NCBI GenBank assembly: GCA_002029975.1
Contig: LQBE01000055.1
Location: forward strand, 51,139 to 87,084
From: a delta proteobacterium ML8_F1
GTDB taxonomy: Bacteria; Bacillota; Clostridia; Peptostreptococcales; Acidaminobacteraceae
Length of the DNA: 35,946 nucleotides
Reading direction: 5' to 3'
Shown here: positions 7,719-25,968 of the stretch, piece by piece
Layout: each line of letters opens with the position of its first letter
Position numbering within the stretch: position 1 is the stretch's first letter
Notes under the pieces: model-generated
Databases searched by the model: none
What the model was told of the DNA's origin: nothing
What the model saw: only the letters and a program-made list of their open reading frames with translations
Translations under genes and position numbers: made by a program

Positions 7719-8195
7719 TTGCTGGAAAAAATTCTAACAGAAGAAAACTTCAAAGCACTCGATGAACTATTGAATCGCTATGAGAAGGTTCCGGGGCCCC
7801 TGATGCCCCTGCTTCAGGGGGCTCAGGACATTTTCACCTGTATCCCTGAGGAGGTTCAGAGCTATATTGCTCAAAAGGCCCGGATTCCCCTGGCAGAGAT
7901 TTATGGCGTGGTCACTTTTTATTCCCAGTTCCGGATGACCCCGAGGGGTGAAAATGTGATCAGTGTGTGTCTGGGGACAGCCTGCTATGTGAAGGGATCA
8001 CAGCATATCATGGACAGGATTTCCAAGGACCTGGGGATTGGAATCGGGGAAACCTCCAAGGACGGCAGGTTCACCCTTGTAGGCACCCGGTGCATCGGTG
8101 CCTGTGGTCTTGCTCCGATTGTCACTGTCAATGAGGATGTCTACGGCAAGGTGAAAGAAGCGGAAATTCTGAAGATTCTCAAGAAATACAAATGA
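7719..8195 (+). CDS. NuoE/HndA-like [2Fe-2S] subunit of NAD(P)-linked formate dehydrogenase
   Basis: This 158-residue protein is a thioredoxin-fold [2Fe-2S] subunit of the NuoE (complex I 24 kDa) family, also found as HndA or HydC in NAD(P)-linked and electron-bifurcating hydrogenases. The four cluster ligands are C84, C89 (CLGTAC), C125 and C129 (CIGAC). An N-terminal helical domain precedes them, and IYGVVTFYSQF is the usual family signature. The start is TTG 7719, chosen because AGGGGG (7705-7710) lies 8 bases upstream and no in-frame ATG fits. It is the first of four tightly spaced genes (13, 12 and 11 base gaps) that end with the formate dehydrogenase catalytic subunit. It likely relays electrons beside the NuoF-like flavoprotein. 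Confidence 0.93.
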   Translation: MLEKILTEENFKALDELLNRYEKVPGPLMPLLQGAQDIFTCIPEEVQSYIAQKARIPLAEIYGVVTFYSQFRMTPRGENVISVCLGTACYVKGSQHIMDRISKDLGIGIGETSKDGRFTLVGTRCIGACGLAPIVTVNEDVYGKVKEAEILKILKKYK

Positions 8196-8208
8196 TGGGG
8201 GGATTGCA

Positions 8209-8562
8209 GTGAAAACCTTTGAAGAATTGATCGCCCTGAAGGAAGAGATTATCGCCGGGGAAGCACCGGATGAAATCAAAATCATGGTGGGTATGGCGAC
8301 CTGTGGCATTTCAGCGGGGGCGAAGCCGGTGATGCAGGCGCTTAAGGATTGTGTCGAGGAAAAAGGGCTTTCAAAAGTCAAAGTGAAGCAGACCGGATGC
8401 ATCGGAGTGTGCCGGCTGGAGCCCATGTTTGAAATTTTCGAACCCGGCGGCAGGAGAACCACCTATGTCGATATGACGCCTGAAAAAGCCGTCGAGGTGG
8501 TTGAAGAGCATCTGATCAAGCACCACATCATTGAACGCTATACCATCGGAGCCTACGATTAA
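8209..8562 (+). CDS. HndB-like thioredoxin-fold [2Fe-2S] ferredoxin subunit
   Basis: This 117-residue protein resembles HndB of NADP-reducing hydrogenase and the N-terminal [2Fe-2S] domain that larger HydB proteins carry fused. Cysteines C32 (MATCGISAGA), C48, C64 and C68 (TGCIGVC) are candidate cluster ligands. It starts at GTG 8209 behind GGGGGGA (8197-8203). Its separate coding next to a NuoF-like protein without that N-terminal domain matches the HndA-HndB-HndC gene order. The role is electron transfer within the soluble formate dehydrogenase complex; which route electrons take is inference. Confidence 0.88.
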   Translation: MKTFEELIALKEEIIAGEAPDEIKIMVGMATCGISAGAKPVMQALKDCVEEKGLSKVKVKQTGCIGVCRLEPMFEIFEPGGRRTTYVDMTPEKAVEVVEEHLIKHHIIERYTIGAYD

Positions 8563-8574
8563 GGGGGTAATGGG

Positions 8575-10068
8575 GTGGAAAACAAGCACTCGATCCTGGA
8601 AATGGATTATATTGAAAGACAAGAGCGGATTGCTCTAAAAAATTGCGGACTCATAGACCCTGAAAGAATCGAGGAGTATATCCGCTATGAGGGCTATCAG
8701 GCATTGGCCAAGGCGATCTTGAAGCTGGGTCCTGAAGGGGTCATAGAGGAAATAGAGGCCTCGGGCCTCAGAGGCCGTGGTGGGGCGGGCTTTCCCACCG
8801 GTAGGAAATGGCGCAGCGGCTATCTGGCCAAGGGCGGGGAGAAATTCATTATCTGCAATGCGGATGAAGGCGATCCCGGCGCTTTCATGGACCGGTCCAT
8901 TCTCGAGGGTGATCCTCACAGTGTGATAGAGGCCATGACCATCGCCGGCTACGCCATTGGGGCGTCCAAGGGTTTTATCTATGTCAGGGCGGAGTATCCC
9001 ATCGCGGTAAAAAGGCTTCAGATTGCCATTGACCAGGCCCATGGGATGGGCTTTCTGGGCCGGGATATTTTCGGGTCCGGGTTTGAATTCGATATCGAGC
9101 TCAGACTTGGCGCCGGGGCGTTTGTCTGCGGCGAGGCCAAGGCCCTGATTGCTTCCATAGAAGGCAAGCGGGGAATGCCCACGCCCAAGCCTCCGAGGAC
9201 CAATGACAAGGGACTCTGGGGAAAACCGACGATTCTCAACAATGTTGAAACCTTTGCCAACGTTCCCCCCATCATCCGAAAGGGGTCTGGGTGGTATGCC
9301 GGAATCGGTTCTGAAAAATCCAAGGGCACCAAGGTCTTTGCCCTTGGTGGCAAAATCAACCGGACAGGGTTGGTGGAAATTCCCATCGGCACCCCCCTCA
9401 GGGAGGTCATTTATGATATCGGGGGTGGCATTCCCGACAACAAGAAATTCAAGGCAGTCCAAACCGGCGGTCCCTCGGGAGGTTGCATCCCAAAGGAGCA
9501 TCTCGATGTCAAAATAGATTATGAATCCCTTCAGGAGATTGGATCCATGATGGGCTCCGGCGGCATGATTGTCATGGATGAAGACAACTGCATGGTGGAC
9601 ATCGCCCGGTTTTTTCTGGAATTCTCTGTTGAGGAATCCTGTGGCAAGTGCACGCCCTGTCGTGAGGGGACCAAAAAGATGCTGAGCATTTTAGACAAGA
9701 TTGCCTCTGGCGAGGGGGTCATGGAGGATCTCGATTACCTGCAAAGCCTGGGCAATGTGATTAAAGAAACCTCTTTGTGCGGCCTCGGAAAGACGGCACC
9801 CAACCCGGTGCTCTCTACCCTGAAGTATTTCAGGGATGAGTACGAGGCCCATGTAAAGGATAAAACCTGTCCGGCAGGAGTCTGTCAGGCGCTGCTCGAG
9901 TACTATATCACCGAGAAATGTATTGGCTGCGGTGCCTGTAAAAGGGTTTGTCCGGTCAACTGCATATCAGGGGAGAAAAAGCAACTCCATACCATCGATC
10001 CAGTGGCTTGTATCCGCTGCGGGGCCTGCCAGGAAGCCTGTCCGGTGGATGCCATCATCAAAAGATAG
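8575..10068 (+). CDS. NuoF/HndC-like FMN- and NAD(P)H-binding subunit of formate dehydrogenase
   Basis: This flavoprotein (497 residues) exchanges electrons between iron-sulfur clusters and NAD(P)(H). The FMN/dinucleotide site shows GRGGAGFPTGRKW (67-79) and CNADEGDPGAF (94-104). A [4Fe-4S] ligand set is C356, C359, C362 and C402. Two further [4Fe-4S] ferredoxin motifs end the protein (C449/452/455/459 and C479/482/485/489), as in HndC and HydB. The nucleotide-binding motif usually written CGEET reads CGEAK (185-189): a conserved acidic residue is lost and a lysine gained, which would suit NADPH. It lacks the N-terminal [2Fe-2S] domain, which is encoded by the gene upstream. The start is GTG 8575 behind AAGGGGGT. 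It is cytoplasmic; no membrane segments. Confidence 0.94.
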   Translation: MENKHSILEMDYIERQERIALKNCGLIDPERIEEYIRYEGYQALAKAILKLGPEGVIEEIEASGLRGRGGAGFPTGRKWRSGYLAKGGEKFIICNADEGDPGAFMDRSILEGDPHSVIEAMTIAGYAIGASKGFIYVRAEYPIAVKRLQIAIDQAHGMGFLGRDIFGSGFEFDIELRLGAGAFVCGEAKALIASIEGKRGMPTPKPPRTNDKGLWGKPTILNNVETFANVPPIIRKGSGWYAGIGSEKSKGTKVFALGGKINRTGLVEIPIGTPLREVIYDIGGGIPDNKKFKAVQTGGPSGGCIPKEHLDVKIDYESLQEIGSMMGSGGMIVMDEDNCMVDIARFFLEFSVEESCGKCTPCREGTKKMLSILDKIASGEGVMEDLDYLQSLGNVIKETSLCGLGKTAPNPVLSTLKYFRDEYEAHVKDKTCPAGVCQALLEYYITEKCIGCGACKRVCPVNCISGEKKQLHTIDPVACIRCGACQEACPVDAIIKR

Positions 10069-10079
10069 GGAGGGAGCAA

Positions 10080-12761
10080 ATGATCAAGTTAACCATAGAC
10101 GGCATTGGCGTAGAAGTTGAAAAAGGCACCTCTATACTTGATGCGGCAAAATCAGTCGCCATCAACATACCGACTCTTTGTCACGATGATCGGCTCAAAC
10201 CATCGGGAGCCTGCCGTATCTGCGGTGTGGAAGTCGAAGGTTCAGATGAACTTCAGGCCTCCTGCACCACTCCCGCCAGGGAGGGGATGGTAATCCATAC
10301 CCGGAGTGACCGGGTTGCCGCAGCCAGAAAGCAGCTGCTGGAACTCATCTGGGAGGACCATCCCAACGAATGTCTGAGCTGTCAGAAGGCCGGCGAGTGT
10401 ACACTCCAGGACCTTTGTTACGATTACGGTGTGGAGGCTGAGGGATTTGCCCCTCTGAAGGTGAGAACCCCCTTGGACACCTCCAATCCTTTTTACACCT
10501 TTGACAAGGACAAGTGCATCCTCTGTGGCAAATGTGTCCGGGTCTGCGAAGAACTGCAGGGGGAAAGCGCCATCCACTTTGTACAAAGAGGGCACGAAAC
10601 CATGATTTCCCATCCCTTTGAAAAGGGAATGGCTTTTTCCACCTGTGTCAGCTGCGGCAATTGTGTGCAAGTGTGTCCCACTGCCGCTCTGATGCCGAAA
10701 ACTGAAGAAAAATTCCGGGTCTGGGATATTGAGAAAAAGGTTCGCACCACCTGCTCCTACTGTGGTGTAGGCTGTCAGTTGGATCTGGTAATCAAGGACA
10801 ACAAGGTGGTCCGGGTGGACGCGGCCAGAGACGGGGAGAATGAGGGAATGCTCTGCGTCAAGGGCAAGTTCGGCTACAGTTTTCTCAACCACAAAGACCG
10901 GCTCACCATGCCCCTGATCCGGGAGGGTGGCGTTTTCAGGGAAGCCTCCTGGGATGAAGCTCTGGACCTGGTTGCCGGCAGGATGACTGAGGTGTATGAC
11001 CACAGCGGTTCGGATGCTTTCGCCGCTTTTGCCTCCGCCCGATGCACCAACGAGGATAACTATGTCCTGCAGAAGATGATGCGGGGCATCTTCAAGACCA
11101 ACAATATCGACCACTGCGCCCGCCTCTGACACAGCTCCACAGTTGCAGGTCTTGCAACTACACTGGGCAGCGGCGCTATGACCAACAGCATCAGGGAGGT
11201 CATCCACAACGAGGTTATTTTCGTCATCGGCAGCAACACCACGGAAAACCATCCGGTTATCGGTGCCATGATGCGGCAGGCTGTCAAAAATGGCGCCAAA
11301 CTGATTGTGGCGGATCCAAGAAGAATTCCCTTGGCCAGGGATGCCGACATCTATCTGCCAATCCAGCCGGGAACCAATGTAGCGCTCCTCAATGGCATGA
11401 TCAAAACCATCCTTGAGGAAAAGCTTTATGACGAGGAATTTATCCGGGAGAGAACAGTGGACTTCAATCGGATGGCTGAAGCCTTGAAGGACTGTTCCGT
11501 GGCGAAATCCGCCGCCCTGTGCCAGGTGTCCGAGGAGGACATCAGAAGGGCCGCCAGACTCTATGCTTCCAGCCACAAGAGCGGTATCTACTACGCCATG
11601 GGAATCACGCAGCATTCCAGAGGAACTGAAGGGGTTTACAATATTGCGAATCTGGCCATGATGACGGGCAATGTTGGCGTGGAATTTGCTGGAGTCAACC
11701 CCCTGAGAGGCCAGAGCAATGTCCAGGGATCCTGCGATCTCGGCGGATTGCCCGATGTCTATCCGGGTTATCAGAAGGTTGCCGATGAAAAGGCGAAAGC
11801 CAGGTTTGAAGCCTCCTGGGGTGTCCAGGGACTTTCCAGGGAGCCGGGGCTGACGCTCCCGAAAATGGTGGACAAGGCTCTGGAGGGAAAAATCAAAATG
11901 ATTTATATCATGGGTGAGAATCCCATGGTTTCAGATCCGGACCTCACCCATTTCGAGGCGGCTCTCGACAACCTTGATTTTCTGGTGGTTCAGGACATTT
12001 TCATGACAGAGACGGCCCAAAAGGCCGATGTGGTTCTGCCGGCGGCAGCCTTTGCCGAAAAGGACGGAACCTTCACTAACACGGAAAGAAGAATTCAGCG
12101 CATCAGAAAGGCCCTGGACCCGCCGGGAGAAGCGAAAGCCGACTGGTGGATCATCAATGAGCTGATGAAACGCATGGGCTACCAGAACGCCTTTGCCAAT
12201 CCGGAAGAAATCATGGCGGAAATAGCCGGGGTCACACCCATCTACGGGGGGATTGACTATGAGCGGATTGATTCGAAGGGACTGCAGTGGCCTGTCAAGG
12301 ACAAGTCCCATCCCGGGACGCCCTATCTTCACAGGGACCGGTTTACCAGGGGACTCGGACAGTTCATGCCTGTGACCTACACCGAATCCGCGGAAACGGC
12401 GGATGAGGCCTATCCCTTGATACTCACCACCGGGAGACTCCTCTATCATTACCACACCCGGTCCATGACGGGCAGAATCCCAGGCCTCAATGAGGTGGTG
12501 GGAGAATCCTATGTGGAAATCTGTCCGAAGACGGCGGCGCTTTATGGCCTTGAAAATGGCGAATGGGTCACGGTCAGGTCGAGACGGGGGGAAATAAAAA
12601 TCAAGGTGAAAATCACCGAGGACATCAAGGAGGACGTGGTGTTCATTCCCTTCCATTTTGCCGATGCCGCAGTGAATCGTCTTACCAATGTGGCGTTGGA
12701 CCCCATTGCCGACATACCGGAATTGAAGGTAGCGGCTGTCCGGATAGAAAAACTGGCATAA
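10080..12761 (+). CDS. fdhA: Selenocysteine-containing formate dehydrogenase, catalytic (alpha) subunit
   Basis: This catalyses reversible formate/CO2 conversion at a Mo- or W-bis-pyranopterin site. The frame from ATG 10080 to TAA 12761 (893 codons) is interrupted only by TGA at 11127-11129, codon 350. The context CARL-U-HSSTVAGL is the active-site motif where FDH has Sec or Cys followed by His, and a SECIS-like hairpin follows, so TGA is read as selenocysteine. The N-terminus is NuoG/HydA-like: [2Fe-2S] ligands C34, C45, C48, C62; His-Cys [4Fe-4S] H94, C98, C101, C107; two [4Fe-4S] sets at 146-156 and 189-199. The catalytic domain has a [4Fe-4S] set C225, C228, C232, C259. The C-terminal molydopterin dinucleotide-binding domain (LILTTGRLLYHYHT) is intact. 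Conventional gene calling would split it at the TGA (downstream half 11178-12761). Last gene of the operon. Confidence 0.96.
11141..11159 (+). promoter_or_regulatory. Bacterial SECIS element directing Sec insertion in fdhA
   Basis: AGTTGCA (11141-11147) and TGCAACT (11153-11159) form a 7-bp stem around the loop GGTCT (11148-11152). The hairpin starts 11 bases after the TGA. As I recall the Escherichia coli fdhF element, it has the same GGUCU loop at the same distance from UGA. It lies inside the coding sequence, as bacterial SECIS elements do, and would bind SelB. Confidence 0.88.
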
Positions 12762-24570: not shown

Positions 24571-24597
24571 AGTATACCAAAGTGTTTGCATTTGCAA
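24571..24597 (-). promoter_or_regulatory. Promoter of the minus-strand lipid kinase-cvfB unit
   Basis: On the minus strand, extended -10 TGGTATACT has its hexamer at 24571-24576, and TTGCAA (24592-24597) is 15 bases upstream. This overlaps the -35 box of the plus-strand mobA-fdhD promoter, so the two face each other. Confidence 0.55.
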
Positions 24598-24636: not shown

Positions 24637-25968
24637 ATGGAAAAATTCGGTTCTGCCGCTATCCTCGCCGGTGGCGAAAGTTTGCGCATGGGCTTTGACA
24701 AACAGATAATCAATCTGGGGCGGGAATACCTGGTGGACAAACTCCATCGGGAACTGAAAGAGATATTCTCCCAGGTGATTGTGATCAGCAACCGACCGGA
24801 GCTTTACCATAACCGGGACTATTTCGTGGTGAGCGACGGGTACCGGGGCCATGGTTCCCTGAGCGGGATTCATCAGGGACTGATGGTTTCAGAATCCGAG
24901 TATCTGTTTGTCACTGCCTGCGATATGCCCTACCTGAATGCCGTTTTGATTGAAAAAATGAAACATCTCCTCCTGGAGAATCCCTCGAAGGCCCTGGTGG
25001 CCAGAAGAGGGGACCGGATTGAACCCTTCCATGGGTTTTATTCCCGGGACCTGTTGCCGGACATCGAGAGGAGCTTTGAAAAAGGGCATTTGAAACTGGG
25101 ACGACTGTTGACAGAATTGGGAGTCAGTACCCTGGATGAGGCGGTTTTGAGAAGCTACGACCGGGAAATGAAACTTTTTACCAATCTCAATACCAAAAAA
25201 GAGCTTCGGGATTATCTGGGCGAGAAAGGGCATAGGGTGATGATTGAGGAAATCTTGATTGAGAAGAATATTTCAGGAAATCAGGAGCCGTTCATGGATG
25301 AGGTGGTGGTTGAAAAAGCCGTGGAAATTGTAATCAACGGTGAAAGGACCCTGGAGATTTACGCTTCAGAAGGCGACCACAGGGAGCTGGTGGTGGGTTT
25401 TCTTAAAAATGCGGGGTTGATTGAGACCCTTGAAGATATTCTCAGTATCAGCTCCGGGGACTCGAAATTCGAGGTGGCCATCAGGCCAGGGGTCCGGGGA
25501 GCGCTTCGCGAGTCAGTCACCTCGGGCTGCCTGGGCAGTGGATTTTCAACTTCGAAGTCTCCGGCGGTTTTATACACGACGCCACACAGAAGCGATCCCG
25601 ATCAAATCAAGGAATATCTGGAGGTGCTCAGGAGCGTCTCAGAGGTTTTTGAAAGGACCGGAGGGGTCCATTCCTCCCTTGCTTTTTTAAGGGACGGGAG
25701 TGTGGTTTTCTATGATGATATCGGCCGCCACAATACCCTGGATAAAATTGTAGGCCATGCCCTCATGACGGGTAAAAATCTACTGGAGGGCACCCTGGTC
25801 ACCACCGGACGGATTTCATCTGAAATGATAAAAAAAGCCGCTATGAATGGCTTCCGAACGGTGATTTCCCGCTCTGCTCCCACGGGTCTTGCCGTAGAAA
25901 TCGCCCGGGAGTACGCAATAGAGCTCATAGGGTTTGCCCGGGGAAACCGGTTCAACCGCTATGTCTGA
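24637..25968 (+). CDS. MobA-FdhD fusion (molybdenum cofactor guanylyltransferase plus FDH sulfur-carrier protein)
   Basis: Two enzymes are fused in one 443-residue protein. Residues 1-200 are MobA, which adds GMP to the molybdopterin cofactor: AILAGGESLRMGFDK (8-22) and CDMPYLN (95-101) are its signatures. Residues about 205-443 are FdhD, which passes sulfur from IscS-type desulfurase to the formate dehydrogenase cofactor: ERTGGVHSSLAF (339-350), DDIGRHNTLDK (360-370), TTGRISSEM (389-397) and RSAPTGLAV (412-420). The FdhD pair normally CxxC reads SGCLGSG, with only C298 kept. The start is ATG 24637 behind AAGGGG. Both activities would serve the Sec-FdhA encoded 12 kb upstream. Confidence 0.93.
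   Translation: MEKFGSAAILAGGESLRMGFDKQIINLGREYLVDKLHRELKEIFSQVIVISNRPELYHNRDYFVVSDGYRGHGSLSGIHQGLMVSESEYLFVTACDMPYLNAVLIEKMKHLLLENPSKALVARRGDRIEPFHGFYSRDLLPDIERSFEKGHLKLGRLLTELGVSTLDEAVLRSYDREMKLFTNLNTKKELRDYLGEKGHRVMIEEILIEKNISGNQEPFMDEVVVEKAVEIVINGERTLEIYASEGDHRELVVGFLKNAGLIETLEDILSISSGDSKFEVAIRPGVRGALRESVTSGCLGSGFSTSKSPAVLYTTPHRSDPDQIKEYLEVLRSVSEVFERTGGVHSSLAFLRDGSVVFYDDIGRHNTLDKIVGHALMTGKNLLEGTLVTTGRISSEMIKKAAMNGFRTVISRSAPTGLAVEIAREYAIELIGFARGNRFNRYV

Follow-up and report, generated by a model that had tools for sequence, protein, structure and literature searches.

A MobA-FdhD fusion with a one-cysteine FdhD loop in a clostridial genome, a probable two-step maturase of formate dehydrogenase

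A single open reading frame of the studied window (35,946 nt of contig LQBE01000055.1, assembly GCA_002029975.1 of delta proteobacterium ML8_F1, assigned by GTDB to the Acidaminobacteraceae of the Clostridia) encodes a MobA-like domain followed by an FdhD domain (Table 1). We propose, with a probability of roughly 0.7, that this fusion is a two-step formate dehydrogenase (FDH) maturase, in which MGD would be made and the cofactor then sulfurated and delivered. A sequence-only reading of the same DNA had claimed that the two domains are fused and that the FdhD loop retains C298 alone; both claims were confirmed, since the two Pfam domains lie in one frame and C298 is the only cysteine of the FdhD domain. 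In the available parts of the literature, one-cysteine FdhD loops have already been published (PMC6239281, PMC10609526), and the fusion is the less expected of the two features.

Table 1. Features of the window associated with the fused gene and its likely client enzyme
Feature	Position	Strand	Basis
MobA-FdhD fusion gene	24637..25968	+	open frame, Pfam domains
MobA-like NTP transferase domain, aa 7-158	24655..25110	+	Pfam NTP_transf_3, E 5.7e-31
FdhD domain, aa 224-442	25306..25962	+	Pfam FdhD-NarQ, E 3.2e-58; TGGVH, DIGRHN, TGRISSEM, SRSAPT
FdhD sulfur-carrying loop SGCLGSG, aa 296-302	25522..25542	+	C298 codon TGC, 25528-25530
Sec-formate dehydrogenase catalytic subunit, NuoG-like N-terminal part	9948..12761	+	in-frame TGA, 11127-11129
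NuoE-like and NuoF-like NADH-linked electron-transfer subunits, three reading frames	7719..10068	+	Pfam; adjoin FDH gene

The fused gene and its product

The frame extends from an ATG at 24637, immediately preceded by AAGGGG, to a TGA at 25966-25968, and its product has 443 amino acids. An alternative in-frame TTG is present at 24586; the homologue from a same-genus genome begins at a Met matching the ATG. The protein is a member of the FdhD/NarQ family (PF02634, 197.7 bits against a cut-off of 27.2) and passes TIGR00129 (160.3 against 140.9), but misses the stricter cut-off of NF001943 (178.4 against 269). Its N-terminal part passes NTP_transf_3 (108.3 against 27 bits) and scores 93.9 bits with the MobA equivalog model TIGR02665, the cut-off of which (151.85 bits) was reached in none of 35 genomes and in one of 14 controls. 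Residues K22, D67, D96, N183, and N185, which we take to match the active-site positions of E. coli MobA, are kept in all 16 fused rows, except for N183 (15/16), and are also conserved in the neighboring-gene rows. The FdhD motif residues H345, R364, H365, R392, and S411 are likewise kept in 16/16 fused rows, and D361 in 15/16. Cysteine occurs twice in the whole protein: C95 belongs to the MobA motif ACDMP, and C298 to the FdhD loop. The cysteine of the LLCSP/LLCTP region, seen in many of the FdhDs shown, is absent from the window protein, which reads EIYASEGD there.

Both domains are well formed in an AlphaFold model built on a 39-row alignment (mean pLDDT 89.5, pTM 0.66). Their mutual arrangement is uncertain at this pTM, and pLDDT falls below 50 at residues 196-198 and 292-303, the latter stretch containing the FdhD loop. 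Foldseek ranked the FdhD structures 4pde and 2pw9 at the top and the MobA structures 1e5k and 3ngw next, with TM-scores by target length of 0.79 for 4pde, 0.77-0.80 for 2pw9, and 0.82 for 1e5k; thus, the C-terminal domain is predicted to adopt the FdhD fold. E. coli FdhD (4PDE) and R. capsulatus FdsC have the same fold and DIGRH/TGR/SRSAPT-type motifs, with C298 aligning at Cys121, but both stand alone and carry CxxC in the loop, whereas the window protein has Ser301 at the position of the second cysteine and MobA in front. Closer in loop sequence is the FdhD homologue of Desulfotalea psychrophila (2PW9, solved in 2007), which combines the same fold with a one-cysteine loop (TSGCGGTG, compared with TSGCLGSG in the window); its deposited chain of 268 residues, unlike the FdhD studied here, is not joined to MobA. 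The MobA domain shares the fold and the presumed active-site residues with E. coli 1E5K and other MobA structures, although identity is low (about 22%) and those proteins lack the fusion to FdhD.

The window comes from a 58-contig draft assembly, in which a stop could have been lost or a Cys codon altered, and the sequence-only reading had itself named a sequencing error at the loop as fatal to its claim. Such an artefact can practically be dismissed, because the fusion and the one-cysteine loop both recur in the same-genus genome (G001; 71% identity, loop SGCLGGG). The fusion was also found in two Acidaminobacter genomes (G002 and G022; 39% identity, loop ATSGARL without a cysteine), as well as in others described below.

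Genomic context and the likely client enzyme

The genome (2.38 Mb, 98.84% complete) encodes one FdhD and one enzyme matching PF00384. The fusion is also its best match to the MobA model (94 bits), the next being a MocA-like protein at 24.7 bits. The only PF00384 match is the Sec-formate dehydrogenase encoded 12 kb upstream of the fusion (TIGR01591, 876 bits against a cut-off of 666.25), which is probably translated from the Met at 10080. SelB is present above its cut-off, and there are two NifS/IscS-type desulfurases, one of them over the NifS cut-off. Together with the fusion, these genes supply the known parts for a Sec-formate dehydrogenase with a sulfurated cofactor, and the fusion appears to serve a single enzyme in this genome, with the Sec-formate dehydrogenase as its likely partner. 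A link of the fusion to a Sec-dependent enzyme, suggested by the sequence-only reading, therefore held insofar as the single bis-MGD-type enzyme detected is a formate dehydrogenase with Sec; a relation between the state of the loop and Sec was not seen (see below). Three binding proteins scored over the cut-off of PF12849, a model that does not separate tungstate from other ligands. The RNA following the FDH UGA (11124-11180) folds no better than its shuffles (z 0.85), no Rfam match reached the gathering score, and promoter and terminator scans stayed near chance level.

FDH and the fusion share one contig in 11 of the 13 genomes with a MobA-FdhD fusion. The two Acidaminobacter genomes and G497 have 4, 5, and 4 PF00384 matches, respectively, with the fusion as the only strong MobA, so that a fused MobA need not be dedicated to FDH. 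At most one PF00384 match was found in 10/13 MobA-FdhD genomes vs. 9/19 others, a non-significant difference (Fisher p 0.15) in a comparison that omitted the three FdhD-MobA genomes and scored G838, which carries an interrupted fusion, as unfused. The three omitted genomes have 8, 20, and 8 PF00384 matches, and two of them contain further strong MobA matches.

Recurrence of the fusion and cysteines of the FdhD loop

An alignment of four fusions was scanned against genome contigs, and the best 80 of 341 relatives were retained. All loci collected contain at least 13 distinct MobA-FdhD fusions and at least 3 in the reverse order, the latter (L106, L109, and L112) in Geobacteraceae and Desulfuromonadaceae with the one-cysteine loop LTSGCGTG. 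A 14th MobA-FdhD frame, from a Clostridium sp. MAG (L046), has a TAA inside the MobA part, which reflects either decay or an assembly error. Among 79 MobA/FdhD pairs no more than 400 bases apart, 63 are unfused neighbors (58 mobA-fdhD, 5 fdhD-mobA) and 16 are fused. In ten of these unfused pairs the two genes are in the same frame and only one stop parts them, which makes fusion an easy step. Of 391 genomes sampled from the class, 80 gave a match of some kind, none of them full-length and fused apart from that of the window; in two, the match spanned the entire fusion but was interrupted by a single stop. Since neighboring genes are far commoner and this sample gave the window's fusion only, the MobA-FdhD fusion is, by these sequence counts, rare.

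On a 69-row tree, fused and unfused states are separated by six changes, or five with L046 taken as fused; ten short pairs of the 79 were dropped from this tree, as was the short L067 from a 154-row tree. A single clade of fused MobA-FdhD (12 rows, without L181 and with L046 as unfused) was rejected (p-AU 5e-55), whereas a nine-row group comprising the window, Acidaminobacter, L046 as fused, and four Clostridiaceae/Fastidiosipila rows is compatible with one clade (p-AU 0.42). These trees point to at least three origins of the fusion, the reverse order and L181 being counted apart, even if some lines re-split later. FdhD has other N-terminal additions as well: a MobB-FdhD fusion in Clostridium weizhouense (L095:728-2122; MobB PF03205 in front, E 3.9e-42) has no cysteine at the loop position, and in L182 (G772) FdhD is preceded by a stretch of about 265 aa without a Pfam match.

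The loop of 148 non-redundant FdhD domains from fetched loci contains one cysteine in 103 cases, none in 31, CC in 14, and CxxC in none; the sample is non-random, with 49 rows obtained via the fusion-alignment scan and 29 via best-scoring phylum matches. CxxC was seen in five reference rows only, E. coli and four of six plasmid records (Deinococcus, Thermus, Rhodococcus, and Granulicella); the remaining two plasmid FdhDs, of Sinorhizobium and Cetobacterium, have one loop cysteine each. The view of the one-cysteine loop as unusual, taken in the sequence-only reading, was thus rejected. Judging from the relatives, it is the ordinary state, and by itself it matters little because it is common. 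The available text of PMC6239281 (2018) describes the same variation: CXXC is not highly conserved and does not define the FdhD family, and FdhDs of group III (Clostridia, Bacilli) have mainly the second cysteine only, CC or none, with no CXXC. PMC10609526, as far as available, likewise mentions FdhDs with one loop cysteine and with none. Variants of the E. coli and R. capsulatus proteins further indicated, contrary to earlier E. coli reports, that neither CXXC cysteine is essential (PMC6239281, part of the text). The further expectation that a natural one-cysteine version would test which cysteine is essential consequently fell: with the state common and its variation published, such a homologue alone cannot decide the matter for E. 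coli.

Alignment with the FdhDs of E. coli, Deinococcus, Thermus, Rhodococcus, and Granulicella places C298 at the first cysteine of CxxC and Ser301 at the second, so that the window loop lacks the E. coli-type CXXC. Equivalence of C298 to the first cysteine is likely but not certain, because the loop is of low confidence in the model and PMC6239281 labels the lone cysteine found in certain FdhDs of group III the "second."

On the 69-row tree, the window protein falls within a clade of 19 rows (support 96/89), in which 16/19 have no cysteine at the loop position, vs. 5/50 outside. The three exceptions are the window protein, its same-genus relative, and L053. The FdhD motif residues remain conserved while the loop cysteine is lost. 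Four of the rows counted as cysteine-less (L051, L093, L037, and L038) have a cysteine a few residues off the loop position, and the clade was possibly drawn together by the method because its branches are long. By raw counts, the loop cysteine is absent from 10/13 MobA-FdhD fusions vs. 21/139 separate FdhDs, while all three FdhD-MobA fusions retain one; an association of fusion with cysteine loss was nevertheless rejected, as independent tree pairs were non-significant (median p 0.5 and, on the 69-row tree, 1). Nor did Sec-dependent FDH explain the loop state. The comparison of FdhD loops proposed in the sequence-only reading gave a loop cysteine in 16/22 genomes with an in-frame TGA in FDH and in 6/10 without, counted by hand on the best PF00384 match per genome, three of which (Geobacteraceae/Desulfuromonadaceae) may not be the FDH served. 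In four Oscillospiraceae MAGs (L037, L038, L041, and L042), the loop of the fused FdhD is shortened and additional cysteines occur in its THCCALC/THRCALC region; these fusions adjoin an FDH without an in-frame TGA.

Proposed function and alternative readings

From the domain make-up, the conserved sites, the single FdhD-domain cysteine, and the gene counts, we infer the following course of maturation. The N-terminal MobA domain would add GMP to the Mo/W-pyranopterin, yielding (bis-)MGD. The C-terminal FdhD domain would take up bis-MGD, help to provide its terminal sulfido ligand, and hand it to the apo-enzyme, with the upstream Sec-formate dehydrogenase as the putative client. If the FdhD domain carries a persulfide, C298, as its sole cysteine, is the only candidate carrier in that domain and would receive the sulfur from a NifS/IscS-type desulfurase. 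Coupling of bis-MGD formation to sulfuration by the fusion, as put forward in the sequence-only reading, is plausible, and being a single chain could favor the hand-over. For separate proteins, FdhD and MobA of M. extorquens gave an above-background two-hybrid signal, and a stepwise hand-over was proposed (PMC13197769, available part).

A real possibility, if the less probable one, is that the fusion is mechanistically meaningless, neighboring mobA and fdhD having merged by loss of a stop, with independent domains and no channeling. The abundance of adjacent or overlapping genes in both orders and the ten same-frame pairs with a single stop agree with such a merger, as do the MobB-FdhD and reverse-order fusions. 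However, the fused state has been retained over a large divergence, down to the 39% identity with Acidaminobacter, and its recurrence through five to six state changes suggests a benefit, which need not lie in channeling. Doubt also attaches to the FdhD half, which might act as a cofactor chaperone alone, C298 being dispensable and sulfur arriving by another route, e.g., as free sulfide. We regard this as rather unlikely, even though the loss of the loop cysteine from most of the supported clade, with motif residues retained, fits it well, and so do two published results seen in the available text: the non-essential CXXC of E. coli and R. capsulatus (PMC6239281) and the sulfuration of R. capsulatus FDH in vitro by sulfide and reductant without a chaperone (PMC12140954). 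It accords less well with the cysteine kept in the window protein and its same-genus relative, and with the cysteine desulfurases of this genome; moreover, the nearby cysteines of some "cysteine-less" rows and the long branches of a possibly method-made grouping weaken the pattern on which it draws.

The two-step maturase thus remains our preferred reading. Only tentatively, and with considerable doubt, would we extend it to the clostridial MobA-FdhD clade as a whole, in which FdhD may have shed its relay cysteine and become a cofactor-making and -loading device with a cysteine-independent sulfido route; the window protein would then be a one-cysteine holdout, and the fused maturase would serve the one bis-MGD enzyme of its genome. 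Laboratories disagree on whether FdhD must itself carry sulfur or chiefly serves to bind the cofactor and pass it on (PMC6239281 vs. earlier E. coli work as cited in PMC10609526), and MobA-FdhD fusions with one or zero loop cysteines are natural test proteins for that dispute. The fused protein would also permit a direct test of the hand-over from MobA to FdhD, and a late maturase encoded by a single gene could be a handy expression part for formate dehydrogenases in CO2 reduction.

No description of a MobA-FdhD or FdhD-MobA fusion was found in the openly licensed papers searched. Related arrangements are known, each from the accessible part of its source. The Gottschalkia purinilyticum FDH cluster ends with mogA-mobA-fdhD (PMC4582583), placing the same two functions side by side, although in separate genes. 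MoeA-MobB fusions are mentioned in PMC13197769, and the NifU-FdhD protein of Pelomyxa schiedti (PMC8887013) similarly joins FdhD to an upstream pathway partner, although that partner is NifU and the host is a eukaryote.
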